Below are positions 24,116 through 29,946 of a stretch of 52,640 bases of DNA, in pieces. Source of the DNA: Chitinophagales bacterium (GTDB lineage Bacteria > Bacteroidota > Bacteroidia > Chitinophagales > JADIYW01); assembly GCA_017984135.1 (NCBI GenBank), contig JAGNZZ010000016.1, forward strand, positions 1 through 52,640, given 5' to 3'. How positions within the stretch are numbered: position 1 is the stretch's first letter; each line of letters opens with the position of its first letter. The translations under genes and the position numbers were made by a program. The notes beneath the pieces were generated by a model. It made no database searches. It was not told the origin of the DNA and saw nothing but the letters and a program-made list of their open reading frames with translations.

Positions 24116-24994
24116 ATGAATATTGGAATTTATAGTCGCGTTTTTAAAGAAGAACATACACCTTACGTGTTGGAGTTAATACAGCAATTAACGCAGTTTA
24201 ATTTTTCTTTTTTTATGTTCGAAAGTTATTATAAGTCGATAAAAAATAAATTAGATAAACAAAAAATTTCAACATTTAAAACGGCAGATGATGTAAAACG
24301 AAATATAAATCTGTTAATTTCATTAGGTGGCGATGGAACACTCTTAGACACCTTGCATTTAGTGCAAGATAGTGAAATTCCGGTAGCAGGTATTAATATG
24401 GGACGATTGGGCTTCTTGGCAGATATTCATAAAGAAGAAATTAAAGAATTAGTACAATCAATTCGTCAAAATACGTACACCATTGAAGATAGAACTTTAA
24501 TAAATGTAGAATCCAATAAACAAGGATTTGGAATAGCCAACTTTGGATTAAATGAATTTACGATTCATAAAACAGATTCATCTTCCATGATTGTTGTACA
24601 TGTATATTTGAACGGTGAATTTCTAAATTCTTTTTGGGCAGATGGACTCATAGTAGCTACGCCAACTGGTTCTACGGCTTATTCTTTAAGTTGTGGCGGT
24701 CCAATTGTTTTTCCGAGTTCCAATAATTTCGTGATTACACCCGTTGCTCCACATAATTTAAACGCGCGTCCAATTATAATTCCAGACAACACCGTTTTGT
24801 CATTTGAAGTAGAATGCCGTTCCAATACTTTTTTATGCTCCATCGATTCTCGTTCTATCAGCATGAATACCAATTGCCAATTAGCTGTTCGAAAATCTGC
24901 CTTTACCTTTAAGTTGTTGCGTATGCCGGAAAGCTCCTATTTAAGTACATTACGTGAGAAATTAAATTGGGGCGAAGATTCGAGGAATAGTTAA
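24116..24994 (+). CDS. nadK: NAD kinase
   Basis: 292 residues. The NAD kinase motif GGDGTLLD is present (about residues 73-80), then GINMGRLGFLADI, NEFTIHK and the Gly-rich TPTGSTAYSLSCGGP. It phosphorylates NAD+ to NADP+ in the cytosol. It is the last gene of the same-strand run beginning with rpoN; 210 bp of repeat-containing spacer follow. Confidence 0.95.
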   Translation: MNIGIYSRVFKEEHTPYVLELIQQLTQFNFSFFMFESYYKSIKNKLDKQKISTFKTADDVKRNINLLISLGGDGTLLDTLHLVQDSEIPVAGINMGRLGFLADIHKEEIKELVQSIRQNTYTIEDRTLINVESNKQGFGIANFGLNEFTIHKTDSSSMIVVHVYLNGEFLNSFWADGLIVATPTGSTAYSLSCGGPIVFPSSNNFVITPVAPHNLNARPIIIPDNTVLSFEVECRSNTFLCSIDSRSISMNTNCQLAVRKSAFTFKLLRMPESSYLSTLREKLNWGEDSRNS

Positions 24995-25000
24995 GACTTC

Positions 25001-25030
25001 TGTCATTTCGAGTGCAACGAGAAATCATAC
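25001..25030 (+). repeat. Dispersed palindromic repeat copy (TGTCATTTCGAG type)
   Basis: The stretch begins TGTCATTTCGAGTGCAACGA and continues GAAATC. ATTTCG pairs loosely with CGAGAAAT around a short centre. From memory, very similar sequences (GTCATTTCGAGCGnAGCGAGAAAT) are scattered through Bacteroidota genomes between genes. It sits 7 bp after nadK and marks the left edge of the 25000-28031 islet. Confidence 0.5.
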
Positions 25031-25144
25031 CACAAGAAGATATTGGGTTCTATTTTAATAAATATTAAGTACATTTTTATAGTTTGCCATCGCATAATAT
25101 AAAAATTAGTATTATATTTACTATTAATTGATTTTTTTTTATGA

Positions 25145-25172
25145 AAAAATCAAAAATCAAAAATCAAAAATC
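25145..25172 (+). repeat. Tandem heptanucleotide repeat (AAAAATC x4), candidate phase-variation tract
   Basis: Four perfect copies of AAAAATC occupy 25145-25151, 25152-25158, 25159-25165 and 25166-25172. They lie directly after an ATG at 25141 and before a hydrophobic segment that ends in a lipobox. In the present copy number the ATG frame stops at 25201-25203, whereas the downstream gene is read one base over. Loss of one unit or gain of two would join them. Confidence 0.85.
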
Positions 25173-25204
25173 AAAAAATTGCAATTTTACTAATCATTAT
25201 TAAT

Positions 25205-26827
25205 ATGTTTGCTATCTTTTCGTGCAGTAAAATTGAAAATACAAATATTAATAATGTAAAACAAAAAAACGCACCTTCCAGTTCAAGGATAAACAGAGGA
25301 ATTGATACTTTTGATTTTTTAATGAATGTAGATAATCCAACAAGAGAGGTAAGAGATTTTATTAGGAATGGTAATTACTTACCAGCAACAAGATCAATAA
25401 AAATTGGTGACCGAGAGCCTACAAAAGCGGAAGAACAACAAATGGCATTAGTTGTAAACCCAACATATCCAAATTACCATTGTTGTAATGATATTTGTCT
25501 AACTATTCCAGAAGATCCGTATGGATTTTATCAACCCTTTACAGATATTTGGGGAAATCCAATAAAATTTATTGGACGATACGGAAATGATCCTAGACAA
25601 ATGTATTATGTATATATACCGAATAATGTAAGTTCCAATGCAAAAATAATTGTTTTAATACATGGTGGTGGATGGATAACTGGCCCAGATCCTGACAAAG
25701 TAAATGGTTTCAACTCTACCTATTGTAATGAAGGTACAGAAAGCACCAATAATATAGTAAAAAATTTATTAAGTGCTGGTTATGTTGTAGTGGCACCTTT
25801 ATATAGATTAGTTGCAGGTGCAGATAATAATGCAGATGATTTATTATCACCTGTAACTGTTTTAGATCAGGTAAATGATATTGATGCAGCCATTACACAT
25901 GTGCGTACTAATTTTCCAACTTGCTTGTGGCAAACAGGTCCAATTAATGCAAATAACATACAAGTATTAGGGGAAAGTGCTGGAGCAAACTTAGCTCTAT
26001 TATTTGCATACACAAAAGCGAATACTTCATATGTAAAATCTGTAGTATCAGTAGCAGGACCGGCTAATATGAATAATTTTGCTTCATGGATACAGAACAA
26101 GCAATTAACAATGCCATGTTTAACTACACAAACAGCGCAAAATGATTTTAAATATGGAGATCCAATTGCTTATCCAACAAAAGTACATTTTCCAAAATAT
26201 TCAATTTACGACCCAGATGCACTAAATGATCCTGCTAATACTAATATTACGAATCTGACCAATCCACAGAGTTTTAATTGTTGGATAAATATTGTAAAAT
26301 CTTATTCATTAGTATATATATTTGGTTTTCCTGTAGATGTTTATACATCAATAACAATTCCTTTAAATCCACCTGGCCCTTATGCAGGGCTTACAAATGC
26401 ACCTGCGCATAATATAACTAAAAGAGTGAATGACTCGTACCATGCAGCACAATATTGTACTCGCAGTATAATTACAAATCCTGCAACTAATAATAACTTA
26501 CAGTTAATTAGTCCTTCTTTCGTTTTAAATAGTTCTCGCATTGTTCCAACATTTATAATATACGGCAATAGTGATTGGTTAGTGCCGTATTCAATAGCAA
26601 TGCTTAATATGAATACTAAACTTACCAATTTTGGTGGATTAATAGGTACGTATAATAGCACTAATAACAATATTCCAATTAACATAAATTACACTACACA
26701 TCCATCTAAACATATTATTAAAATATTCAGTTCAGATGGTGCGCCAGCTTTTGGTCATGCTAATCATAATGTTGCACAACATTTACAAGCACAAGGGAAT
26801 ATATTAAATTGGTTTAGTCAGCATTAA
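25205..26827 (+). CDS. Alpha/beta-hydrolase (esterase/lipase-like) lipoprotein; start region out of frame
   Basis: At least 540 residues, Asn-rich. Counting from 25205, the oxyanion motif HGGGW lies near residue 150 and the nucleophile elbow is GES258AG; a late GHANH segment may hold the catalytic His. This is the HSL/carboxylesterase layout, with unusually long loops. Starting at 25205 leaves only MFAIFSC, too short for a signal peptide. Reading the same frame upstream gives KKSKIKNQKSKIKNQ then IAILLIIINMFAIFSC, a complete lipoprotein signal, but no start codon lies in that frame; the ATG at 25141 is one frame off across four AAAAATC repeats. The gene is thus probably switched off, or translated poorly, in this copy. 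A second lipoprotein gene follows 12 bp on. The substrate is unknown. Confidence 0.8.
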   Translation: MFAIFSCSKIENTNINNVKQKNAPSSSRINRGIDTFDFLMNVDNPTREVRDFIRNGNYLPATRSIKIGDREPTKAEEQQMALVVNPTYPNYHCCNDICLTIPEDPYGFYQPFTDIWGNPIKFIGRYGNDPRQMYYVYIPNNVSSNAKIIVLIHGGGWITGPDPDKVNGFNSTYCNEGTESTNNIVKNLLSAGYVVVAPLYRLVAGADNNADDLLSPVTVLDQVNDIDAAITHVRTNFPTCLWQTGPINANNIQVLGESAGANLALLFAYTKANTSYVKSVVSVAGPANMNNFASWIQNKQLTMPCLTTQTAQNDFKYGDPIAYPTKVHFPKYSIYDPDALNDPANTNITNLTNPQSFNCWINIVKSYSLVYIFGFPVDVYTSITIPLNPPGPYAGLTNAPAHNITKRVNDSYHAAQYCTRSIITNPATNNNLQLISPSFVLNSSRIVPTFIIYGNSDWLVPYSIAMLNMNTKLTNFGGLIGTYNSTNNNIPININYTTHPSKHIIKIFSSDGAPAFGHANHNVAQHLQAQGNILNWFSQH

Positions 26828-26839
26828 AATGTATGTAAA

Positions 26840-27745
26840 ATGAAAAAAATATTTTTTTGTAGAGCATTAACTTTCATTTTATTGCTAACGGGTTGTTGTA
26901 ATGATAATTTATTGCCAACATCTGAAAATATACTTAAAGGAAAGTTAAAAACTTTTGAAGATGAAAATTTTACGAGCAGTATCACTAATGATTCTGCTGT
27001 CAGATTTTATTTTAATTATGACAGTATACATGGTGAACTAAAAAACATTTCAATCAAAATTCAAATTAATAATATGGATACCATGCTTCCTGTTTTTACC
27101 ATCAATAAAGTAAGCAATGGCATTACATATGTTTATTTTCTTAATTTCTATTCACTTGGTGCAGGTATTCAAAAATTCAGAATAAATACTATCAATAAAC
27201 GAATAACCTCATTAGTTGAACTAGATACTATTAATAATACGGAAAGATTAGTTGCTTACACATATTACACTGGAAATAATATTGATAGTGCTTATAATGC
27301 TGGTGATTTTCTAACTTATAATATCAGATTGTCCAATTTTATATTTTCCAATCAAAATTTTATCGGTTACAATATAAATTCTACAACACAGTTAATAAGT
27401 CCACCATATAATACAATTAATAGACAAGCTCATAGGAAAATAAATTACACAAATAGTCTCTTAAAAAATAAACTATTCACTCAAAATTGTATGGATATTT
27501 TCCCAAGATATAATTATGATTTACTTTTATACTTCTTGAATGTAGATGATTATTACATTACACCAATAAATAAAAATTTAATAAGCGATATTACTGAATT
27601 TTCTGAAAATGATGATGATACTATCATTGTAAGATATAACTATCAATATACATATTCAGATGTAACAAGTGTTAAAAGAACCTATTTTTCTCTTTCAGAT
27701 ACTTCTATTAAAACAGAAAAATATCAACGAATGACCTATTATTAA
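26840..27745 (+). CDS. Hypothetical lipoprotein, 301 aa
   Basis: The N-terminus MKKIFFCRALTFILLLTGC has a basic start, hydrophobic core and lipobox LTGC, so a lipid-anchored envelope protein is likely. The mature part is rich in Asn, Tyr, Ile and Thr with no domain I recognise. It begins 12 bp after the hydrolase lipoprotein and is probably co-transcribed, so it may share any phase control only at the level of coupling. The composition is more AT- and Asn-rich than in the flanking housekeeping genes, which hints at acquisition. Confidence 0.7.
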   Translation: MKKIFFCRALTFILLLTGCCNDNLLPTSENILKGKLKTFEDENFTSSITNDSAVRFYFNYDSIHGELKNISIKIQINNMDTMLPVFTINKVSNGITYVYFLNFYSLGAGIQKFRINTINKRITSLVELDTINNTERLVAYTYYTGNNIDSAYNAGDFLTYNIRLSNFIFSNQNFIGYNINSTTQLISPPYNTINRQAHRKINYTNSLLKNKLFTQNCMDIFPRYNYDLLLYFLNVDDYYITPINKNLISDITEFSENDDDTIIVRYNYQYTYSDVTSVKRTYFSLSDTSIKTEKYQRMTYY

Positions 27746-27873
27746 AAATATCTCGGCTTTGATTATTATCCAACCTCAAAATCACCAATCCGCAGAGGGT
27801 TTAGCTGCTTTTGATTATACACATGTTCTTGGAAGGAATAAAGATGTATTTGACAAAATGGGTGATTTTCAGA

Positions 27874-27982
27874 CATGGTTCGTGTCTCACTTCAGTCATG
27901 GTTTGCGTCTCACGAAACATTTTAGCCATGGTTTGCGTCTCACGAAACATTCCTCAGTCATGGTTCGTGTCTCACGAAACAT
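27874..27982 (+). repeat. Tandem array of four palindromic repeat copies upstream of asnB
   Basis: A unit of about 24 bp recurs at 27874-27890 (truncated), 27897-27920, 27927-27950 and 27959-27982, with 6-8 bp spacers. The last copy begins CATGGTTCGTGTCTCACGAA and ends ACAT. Each full copy is nearly self-complementary around TCT, with stem TTCGTG/CACGAA in the first and last copies and a changed GTTTGCG half in the middle two. All are in the same orientation. Confidence 0.85.
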
Positions 27983-27991
27983 TTTATCTTC

Positions 27992-28031
27992 TCATTCTAA
28001 AATCGTACATTGTCATTCTAAAATCGTACAT
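27992..28031 (+). repeat. Two 19-bp direct repeats just before asnB
   Basis: TCATTCTAAAATCGTACAT occurs perfectly at 27992-28010 and again at 28013-28031, two bases apart. The second copy ends 4 bp before the asnB ATG, so it fills the region where a leader and ribosome-binding site would be. Confidence 0.9.
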
Positions 28032-28035
28032 CAAA

Positions 28036-29946
28036 ATGTGTGGAATTGCAGGCGCGTATAGTTTTAAAAATAAAATTGTTGAACAACAATGGTTGCAAAA
28101 TACAGCTACCTCTTTAAATAAACGCGGTCCTGATAATCAGAATTTTGTTACCATTGGCAAAGCATCTTTAGTACACGCACGTCTATCAATTATTGATACG
28201 TCAACAGCAGCGAATCAACCGATTTACGATAGTACCGAAAGATATTCAATCATCTTCAACGGCGAGATTTTCAACTATCAAATTGTAAAAGAAGAATTGT
28301 TGCAACTTGGTGTGCAGTTCAAAACACACTCTGATACCGAAGTGTTGTTGTATGCCTACATTCATTTTGGCGAAACATTTTTACATAAACTCAATGGCTT
28401 TTTCGCATTTGCCATTCACGATAAACAAGAAGATAATTTATTTATTGCTTGTGATAGATTTGGCATCAAACCATTATACTATTATACTGATGAAGATTAT
28501 TTTTTCTTCGGTTCCGAATTAAAATCCATCTTACAATTTCCTGTAAAAAAAGAAATAAACTGGAGCGCAGTTAGTTTGTATTTTCAACTCAATTACATTC
28601 CTGGAAAAAATTCCATTTTCAAAAATATACAACGCTTAGAACCTGGTCATCAAATTTTAATTCATAAATCTGATTCCGATAGCTATCGGAACATAATTAA
28701 GAAATGGTACACCATTCCATACAATGCATTAAATGCCGAGCAAAATCAGCTAAGCTACGACGAACAAAAGAAAAAACTAGTAGAGCTAATGGATGATTCT
28801 GTTCGCTTGCGTTTAATTGCCGATGTGCCATTAGGCGCATTTTTAAGTGGAGGAATAGATTCATCCGTGATAACGGCAATGGCATCGCGCCATACCAAAA
28901 ATTTAAATACATTTTCAATTGGTTTTGAAGGAAATGAATTCTTTGATGAAACACCTTATGCTAATTTGGTAGCGAAGCATTTTAAAACCAACCACACTGT
29001 TTTTAAATTAAAAAATGAAGACTTATTTCAAAGTTTACACGAACTCTTAGATTATAGCGATGAACCTTTTGCTGATTCATCCGCATTGTTGGTAAATATA
29101 CTTTCCAAACATACCAGTAAATACGTGAAAGTGGCACTTTCCGGCGATGCAGGCGATGAATTGTTTGCCGGATACAATAAACATTATGGTGAATGGCAAT
29201 CGAGAAATGGTGGTTGGAAAGCAAATGTGATACACTTATTGCAACCACTTTGGAATACGTTGCCTAAATCCAGAAATGGAAAATATGGCAATAAAATAAG
29301 ACAGTTAGAACGTTTTGCATCAGGTATGAATTTGTCAAATGCGGAACGATGGTGGCGTTGGTGCTGTATCAATGATTTTAATTTTGTAGAGAAATTATTG
29401 AATCATAAATGCGATGCTTCCATGATGGAATTGATTGAAACACGTCAACAATTTATGGCATCTGTTCAATATGATGGCACTTTAAATGATAATTTGTTGG
29501 CGGATGTGAATATGGTTTTGCCGTATGATATGCTTACAAAAGTCGATAGAATGAGTATGTGCAATTCTTTAGAAGTACGTGTTCCTTTTTTAGACTATCG
29601 AATCGTTGAATATGCTTTCACATTGCCGGTTTCTAGCAAAATAAATGCAAACATGAAAAAGAAAATCGTACAAGATGCATTTAAACAAATATTGCCCAAT
29701 GAACTTTACAATAGACCTAAAAAAGGATTTGAAGTGCCGTTGCTTCAATGGTTTAGAACAGATTTGAAAAATCAAATTTTAAATGATTATCTAAGCGATG
29801 AGTACATACAACAGCAAGGTGTTTTTAATGTTGATGTAATTCGATCCATCAAACAACAATTATTTTCAGCAAATCCAGGTGATGTACATGCACAAATATG
29901 GGCTTTAATGGTGTTTCAAAATTTTTGGAGAAAATACATGGAATAA
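28036..29946 (+). CDS. asnB: Asparagine synthase (glutamine-hydrolysing)
   Basis: 636 residues from ATG 28036. This start gives MCGIAGAYSF, which puts the catalytic Cys at position 2 as the class II amidotransferase domain requires; the frame is open further upstream but runs through repeats. The synthetase half has the PP-loop SGGIDSS at 271-277 and the later 'LPYDMLTKVDRMSM' signature. It makes asparagine from aspartate, glutamine and ATP; in glycan clusters AsnB homologues often amidate sugars instead. Residues 213-219 (DSDSYRN) are encoded by a perfect 18-bp palindrome in the linker between the two halves. A glycosyltransferase gene follows 36 bp on. Confidence 0.92.
   Translation: MCGIAGAYSFKNKIVEQQWLQNTATSLNKRGPDNQNFVTIGKASLVHARLSIIDTSTAANQPIYDSTERYSIIFNGEIFNYQIVKEELLQLGVQFKTHSDTEVLLYAYIHFGETFLHKLNGFFAFAIHDKQEDNLFIACDRFGIKPLYYYTDEDYFFFGSELKSILQFPVKKEINWSAVSLYFQLNYIPGKNSIFKNIQRLEPGHQILIHKSDSDSYRNIIKKWYTIPYNALNAEQNQLSYDEQKKKLVELMDDSVRLRLIADVPLGAFLSGGIDSSVITAMASRHTKNLNTFSIGFEGNEFFDETPYANLVAKHFKTNHTVFKLKNEDLFQSLHELLDYSDEPFADSSALLVNILSKHTSKYVKVALSGDAGDELFAGYNKHYGEWQSRNGGWKANVIHLLQPLWNTLPKSRNGKYGNKIRQLERFASGMNLSNAERWWRWCCINDFNFVEKLLNHKCDASMMELIETRQQFMASVQYDGTLNDNLLADVNMVLPYDMLTKVDRMSMCNSLEVRVPFLDYRIVEYAFTLPVSSKINANMKKKIVQDAFKQILPNELYNRPKKGFEVPLLQWFRTDLKNQILNDYLSDEYIQQQGVFNVDVIRSIKQQLFSANPGDVHAQIWALMVFQNFWRKYME
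28674..28691 (+). repeat. Perfect 18-bp palindrome inside asnB
   Basis: TTCCGATAGCTATCGGAA is fully self-complementary. It lies in frame in the asnB coding sequence, in the linker region after EPGHQILI. Sequences containing CCGATAGCTATCGG are, from memory, common dispersed palindromes in Bacteroidota. Confidence 0.85.

Follow-up and report, generated by a model that had tools for sequence, protein, structure and literature searches.

The nadK-asnB junction

The window, by which we mean the whole stretch of DNA analysed, is the complete contig C18 (52,640 bases) of a draft genome of 2.63 Mb in 71 contigs (G000), which we compared with the other genomes of the genus (G001-G007, one genome per species). 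It carries nadK and an asnB-type gene separated by two ORFs, a series of palindromic units and a pair of direct repeats that reaches almost to the asnB start codon (Table 1). The asnB product matches NCBIfam TIGR01536 at 458.8 bits (cut-off 267.1), and its relatives at 72-85% identity come from metagenome-assembled Chitinophagales, Sphingobacteriales, Bacteroidetes or Bacteroidota bacteria.

Table 1. Features from nadK to asnB, in window coordinates
Feature	Position	Strand	Basis
nadK	24116..24994	+	Pfam NAD_kinase; directly 5' of asnB in three relatives (synteny)
alpha/beta hydrolase ORF, cargo between nadK and asnB	25205-26827	+	
Lipoprotein-like ORF, cargo between nadK and asnB	26840-27745	+	'Lipoprotein' read from the protein start
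REP copy 1, truncated: 5' foot and left stem half with loop, without the GAAACATT end	27869..27891	+	Register, fold
REP copy 2, stem-breaking TTTGCG variant	27892..27921	+	Register, fold
REP copy 3, TTTGCG variant as in copy 2	27922..27953	+	Register, fold
REP copy 4, perfect 6-bp stem TTCGTG/CACGAA (27964-27978), 3-nt loop	27954..27986	+	Stem pattern, model R1
21-bp tandem duplication (three heptads, 3 x 7) of AATCGTA-CATTGTA	27992..28033	+	Element upstream of asnB in congeners
asnB-type glutamine-hydrolysing asparagine synthase, MCGIAG start	28036..29946	+	Pfam GATase_7 and Asn_synthase

In the relatives fetched, asnB and a glycosyltransferase gene follow nadK in the same order as far as the contigs extend; we take the genes at the two ends of this conserved order to be bamA-like before nadK and WecA/MraY-like after the glycosyltransferase. 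The last nadK codon and the asnB start are 24 bp apart in G001, 72 bp in G004 and 101 bp in G005, and as much as 720 bp in G003, 1781 bp in G006 and 3044 bp in the window, with different ORFs in each of the last three. The junction (window 24994-28036; L117 2781-3500; L123 1720-3500), which holds differing cargo in three of the six genus genomes that cover it (our own included), has the look of a variable insertion site. Neither the hydrolase ORF nor the lipoprotein-like one gave a tblastn match in nine compared loci, among which five cover the junction; the lipoprotein-like ORF has no family match, and no inverted repeats occur in the junction DNA of G003 and G006 within a distance limit of 40 bp. 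These two genes, together with the conserved leader element described below, had been overlooked in an earlier, sequence-only reading of this DNA. A gene remnant in the segment 27746-27873 was considered and rejected, the ORF at 27759-28061 having no Pfam match; a DNA search of 13 genomes with this segment gave a best E value of 0.039 outside itself.

The asnB frame remains open for 75 codons further 5', across the repeats (27811-29946), so that automatic annotation may give a falsely extended AsnB; in G002, G004 and G005 an in-frame stop lies 6-12 nt 5' of the MCG/VCG start. Inside the cargo, a perfect (AAAAATC)4.7 array at 25145-25177, 27 bp 5' of the hydrolase ORF start, constitutes a second heptamer array.

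A worn REP array upstream of asnB

The palindromic cores (CATGG) start at 27874, 27897, 27927 and 27959, in one direction and at spacings of 23, 30 and 32 bp, and all four units, as well as the two 19-bp repeats behind them, lie where the sequence-only reading had placed them. Its count of units can be refined to three full REP units and one partial, as copy 1 stops after CAC and then merges into copy 2. Tandem Repeats Finder describes the same DNA as a 30-bp period with 3.1 copies (27891-27984) and a 23-bp period (27868-27913). Copies 2 and 3 do carry the changed half that had been noted (TTTGCG, against TTCGTG in copies 1 and 4), and it does weaken the hairpin: single-unit RNA folds give -6.3 (through an alternative pairing), -2.7, -2.7 and -7.0 kcal/mol for copies 1 to 4, and -12.6, -14.7 and -16.8 kcal/mol for three other copies of the family (37-38 nt), while folds with DNA parameters give -3.1, -2.9, -2.9 and -7.1 against -9.8 to -11.1 for other family copies. 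The array at asnB is worn, with copy 1 truncated and copies 2 and 3 broken in the stem.

The repeats upstream of asnB are genuine and exceed what chance would give. In 50 Markov-1 sequences built from the window, exact direct repeats within 150 bp reached 15 nt at most, and the only exact repeats of at least 19 nt in the window are the REP set, the 19-bp set and the (AAAAATC)n array. The unit CATGGTTTGCGTCTCACGAA is confined, genome-wide, to copies 2 and 3; a variant common to these two and absent elsewhere in the genome argues for local duplication rather than repeated insertion, and copy 3 is probably a local duplicate alongside copy 2. The four same-direction copies at asnB lack the alternating orientation of a BIME or REPIN; inverted REP neighbours are present at other sites of the genome, for example on contig C25.

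A genome-wide REP family and a cognate RAYT

The search of the genome that the sequence-only reading had proposed returned matches of the palindromic unit well beyond asnB, revealing a genome-wide REP family. With up to three mismatches the unit occurs nine times in the own genome; the asnB array accounts for four of these occurrences and contig C68 for three. The pattern TTCGTGN{2,5}CACGAA occurs at 18 places in this genome, the asnB one included (reversed control 1), and at 33 in G005 (control 0). The corresponding counts are 2, 0, 3, 1, 0 and 1 in G001, G002, G003, G004, G006 and G007 (controls 0, 2, 0, 2, 1 and 0), and 0, 0, 0, 0 and 1 in five genomes outside the genus (controls 1, 3, 5, 0 and 2), such that only G000 and G005 stand clearly over background by the stem pattern. 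All 17 own-genome places outside the window fall outside ORFs of at least 80 aa; the copy in the window falls in the over-long frame of asnB, but becomes intergenic when the false extension is set aside. Like-oriented copies follow the majority pattern GCC(A/G)TGG-TTCGTG-TC(C/T)N-CACGAA-(A/C)CA. The flank GCC(A/G)TGG before the stem is common to the copies, and its G, which lies outside the stem used for selection, does not vary among the 44 aligned copies and is retained in all four at asnB. Loops of 3 nt are found in two of the 18 own perfect-stem copies (asnB and C68:48561), the others having 4.

A covariance model (R1) built from the 44 copies, mostly from G000 and G005 and none from the window, recovers copy 4 (27952-27990, 46.5 bits, E 1.2e-9) and a stretch spanning copies 1 and 2 (27867-27928, 29.7 bits, E 5.6e-5); copies 2 and 3 are not found separately by this model, and copy 3 has no match of its own. 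At E 0.01, with 150 candidates scored per genome and some palindromes counted on both strands, it gave 22 matches in G000 and 64 in G005, then 2, 0, 6, 4, 0 and 1 in G001, G002, G003, G004, G006 and G007; the five genomes outside the genus gave none. As a separate observation, a 19-bp unit, CGTGAGACACGAACCATAA, stands in tandem from about position 1498 of locus L002 (G027:C3), where the same palindrome is thus arranged head to tail in another genus.

An ORF beside the REPs on contig C68 matches the REP-associated tyrosine transposase (RAYT) family NCBIfam NF047646 at 87 bits (cut-off 80) and Pfam Y1_Tnp at 27 bits (cut-off 23), and five of the 18 perfect-stem hairpins surround the gene. Among 20 RAYT-like ORFs extracted from 30 RAYT-search loci, REP hairpins are present in the locus of only two, the C68 gene (5 hairpins) and one on contig C13 of G005 (7 hairpins). 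These two proteins are 78% identical, the next closest being at 39-42%, and the two REP-rich genomes among the 13 are the two in which a RAYT of this type was found; the locus of a second RAYT of G005, on contig C7, contains no such hairpin. In G065, from another family of the order, a RAYT (NF047646, 84.6 bits; no Pfam Y1_Tnp match) lies among similar hairpins, with 16 near matches of the unit core. Near matches of the core occur in four of 99 genomes searched, and, together with G065, they indicate that this REP type extends beyond the genus, though with a patchy distribution. The pairing of gene and palindromes suggests that the RAYT may mobilise REPs of the asnB type in trans. The RAYT contig also holds two perfect 38-bp tandem copies (L029 6258-6333), each with a TTGACAGGTG/CACCTGTCAA palindrome, a hairpin repeat distinct from the REP.

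By comparison of motifs, the C68 protein (NHVH, WQ, YIHNNP) may belong to RAYT subclass 2.6 (NH[LIV]H, WQ, YIH[QN]NP) or to subclass 2.4 (NH[IFV]H, WQ, YIxNNP), as it fits both. Subclass 2.6, in the account of REPtrons (RAYT = TnpA-REP) drawn on here, consists mostly of Bacteroidetes RAYTs whose flanking palindromes are atypical and not of the GT[AG]G kind (Quentin et al. 2018, PMC6006769). The likeness extends to a NHVH/WQ/YIHNNP RAYT flanked by non-GTAG palindromes with copies dispersed between genes; the present case differs from that account in its low copy number (18 perfect stems) and in the head-to-tail, degenerate array at asnB. This REP sequence may be listed among the subclass 2.6 palindromes in the additional files of that paper. 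The units share with the GTAG and CGTC REP super-families, in the portion of PMC3733652 used here, the form of short intergenic stem-loops of 20-40 bp; they differ from the canonical GTAG REP of that portion in that GT[AG]G stands 5' of the stem in just 5 of 44 copies, GCC(A/G)TGG being conserved instead. We conclude that the palindromes upstream of asnB are ordinary REPs of an atypical Bacteroidota type.

A duplicated heptamer element in the asnB leader

The two 19-bp repeats (27992-28010 and 28013-28031) do not differ at any position, and 4 bp separate the second from the ATG at 28036. Tandem Repeats Finder reports them as a 21-bp period with 1.9 copies and 100% match (27992-28031), and with up to three mismatches the 19-mer matches twice in the window against 0.12 expected. 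The genome search suggested for this repeat as well found no copy beyond the asnB pair within two mismatches.

Related DNA lies upstream of asnB in other species. AAAATCGTACATT precedes asnB in G002, G003, G004, G005 and G006, five of the six readable congeners, the exception being G001, where the element is absent upstream of asnB; G007 is not readable here, its contig ending 9 nt before the ATG. In G002-G006 the longer form AAAATCGTACATTGTA (AAAATCGTACATTACA in G003) stands before asnB with AAATCG 36-51 nt from the start, and the spacer flanking the core, AATCGTACATTGTA, differs among congeners. The leader of G002, AATCGTA-CATTGTA-AATCGTA-AATCGTA-AATTATA, shows the 7-bp unit, and that of the window, AATCGTA-CATTGTC-ATTCTAA-AATCGTA-CATCAAA-ATG, displays the 21-bp duplication in heptad register. 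Compared with the sister species that have the element, the window carries an older asnB leader element in duplicate, in the form of the 19-bp repeats; on this reading the duplicated leader lies beside the REPs by coincidence.

The element is found before other genes. Using the 15-mer AAATCGTACATTGTA with up to one mismatch in the genus genomes and asking for an ORF start within 60 nt, 13 of 21 places have a start in sense and one in antisense, one place having both. Three of the 13 sense places are asnB and some others are orthologous pairs; eight of the 21 have neither start under the strict filter, and three of those eight, the own and G006 asnB included, have a sense start in a looser test. 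Beyond the genus, a looser array pattern (up to one mismatch) occurs in 16 of 60 relatives (control 2), and perfect AATCGTA triple arrays are present in 12 genomes of a phylum-wide set of 198 (control 0). Among the 14 perfect arrays of the phylum set, 11 have a sense start within 60 nt and one, itself among the 11, an antisense start; six further perfect-array loci add one sense and one antisense, which gives 12 sense and 2 antisense for all 20. Tandem 7-bp units thus stand in sense before start codons, as start-proximal heptamer repeats do. Not every array is close to a start, however: in G045, the richest genome of the 60-relative search, none of the three arrays examined has one within 60 nt. 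Perfect AATCGTA triple arrays are absent from the own genome, asnB bearing a degenerate form only. Two loci from two species of one genus (L257 and L258) carry AATCGTA triple arrays 5' of the same 366-aa ORF (MALQCGIVGLPNVG), a second orthologous instance of such arrays at one gene.

An alternative is that the 19-bp repeats arose by chance or simple slippage, are of no consequence and belong to no related element. Slippage ordinarily yields perfect tandem copies such as these 21-bp ones, the own genome holds no other close copy, and in its fetched part ATCGTA is not sense-enriched before starts (3 sense and 8 antisense, the asnB leader being uncounted since an over-long ORF was called), the fetched part of G005 giving 13 sense and 3 antisense. 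Against this, the core is kept before asnB in most readable congeners despite the differing spacer, and the 15-mer lies predominantly in sense before other genes, which leaves the alternative unlikely in our view. The position and orientation of the conserved element suggest that it probably acts at the mRNA level, near the translation start.

The closest published likeness that we found is the TAACTGA repeat. As described for one Beggiatoaceae genome in the text consulted of MacGregor 2015 (PMC4679880), TAACTGA heptamer direct repeats mostly point at start codons and were suggested to be binding sites of a post-transcriptional regulator; they are present in five Bacteroidetes, show indels in 7-nt steps in Cyanothece, and have no shared gene function. 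Both are intergenic 7-bp direct repeats directed mostly toward a nearby start codon; the heptamer here differs in being AATCGTA, and asnB has only two exact units, interleaved with variant heptads. AATCGTA is absent from the main text of that paper, whose supplements show other heptamers.

Folding of the leader and control of asnB

The sequence-only reading had left a choice between an mRNA leader forming a chain of hairpins, through which asnB expression could depend on copy number, and a region that collects mobile palindromes. The analysis supports the latter, through a REP family spread over the genome and a cognate RAYT encoded there too. It lends no support to the former, as the leader folds no better than its shuffles (27746-28060: z 0.60, 73 of 100 shuffles folding as well; 27867-28035: z -0.89, 36 of 200). 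With these z-scores, the weak copies 2 and 3 and the cut copy 1, a stable hairpin chain was rejected. Neither was a riboswitch or leader of the Rfam type retained, with no match at gathering threshold in the window and none up to E 1 in 27700-28100.

These results also bear on a broader proposal, in which the array would be a cis-regulatory leader that tunes asnB by copy number, whether through tandem hairpins in the mRNA or as an attenuator placed after the lipoprotein-like gene and before asnB. It is consistent with the position of the array directly 5' of asnB and with copy 4 being the sole terminator-like site in 27700-28100 (0.3 expected in shuffles). The promoter motif TAnnTTTG has no match in 27746-28035, which makes read-through from upstream plausible, yet about 0.9 matches are expected from its density, so that the absence says little. 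Weighing against it are a stability no greater than that of shuffles, the broken and cut copies, the lack of any Rfam match, and the lack of an R1 match close to asnB in any of the six congeners whose upstream DNA can be read (only 453 bp in G002). We consider such a leader improbable and hairpin-chain control of asnB unsupported, although the predicted copy 4 hairpin (-7.0 kcal/mol) might have some effect on read-through. That the palindromes are instead the ends of a mobile element that brought in the two cargo genes is very improbable. In its favour, the array sits at the right border of the cargo, and G003 and G006 carry other cargo at the junction. Against it, R1 matches the window at two places only, both within 27867-27990, which leaves the left border without a match, and the cargo ORFs match no transposase or integrase.

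Discussion

We favour, with a probability of roughly 0.8, a worn REP array mobilised by a RAYT elsewhere in the genome, plus a separate 21-bp duplication of a conserved heptamer leader. A REP family would be mobilised in trans by the single-strand RAYT transposase, whose gene lies at another place in the genome. One or two REPs would have inserted at the variable nadK-asnB intergenic site, and the array would then have expanded by local tandem duplication. In a separate event, the older conserved asnB leader, of the AATCGTA heptamer family, would have been duplicated in heptad register. We infer this order of events from the sequences themselves, and the REP array would presumably have little effect on asnB.

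A literature search by title and abstract start returned no description of this REP family or of AATCGTA repeats, and a weak search by sequence string, covering the titles of a small part of the matches, returned none on such repeats. One table passage of RepRanger (PMC12306157) gives three Bacteroidota genomes with REPs, and the main text of that paper has no mention of Chitinophag-, RAYT or GTTCGTG.

Of the two components, the heptamer leader is the more curious, the hairpins being ordinary. A bolder proposal, speculative and rather doubtful as yet, is that AATCGTA heptamers form a Bacteroidota-wide start-proximal leader class, read in heptad units by an RNA-binding factor or the ribosome, with the asnB leader as an ancient member enlarged here by exactly three heptads.

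Overall, an unexplained leader array in an uncultured Bacteroidota genus is tied to a transposase paired with its cognate repeat, and the locus illustrates that tandem repeats beside a start codon can have two separate, unrelated origins. Should the heptamer leader prove functional, a second sequence would join the start-proximal heptamer repeats, and its conserved occurrence at an orthologous gene would open the way to a direct test.
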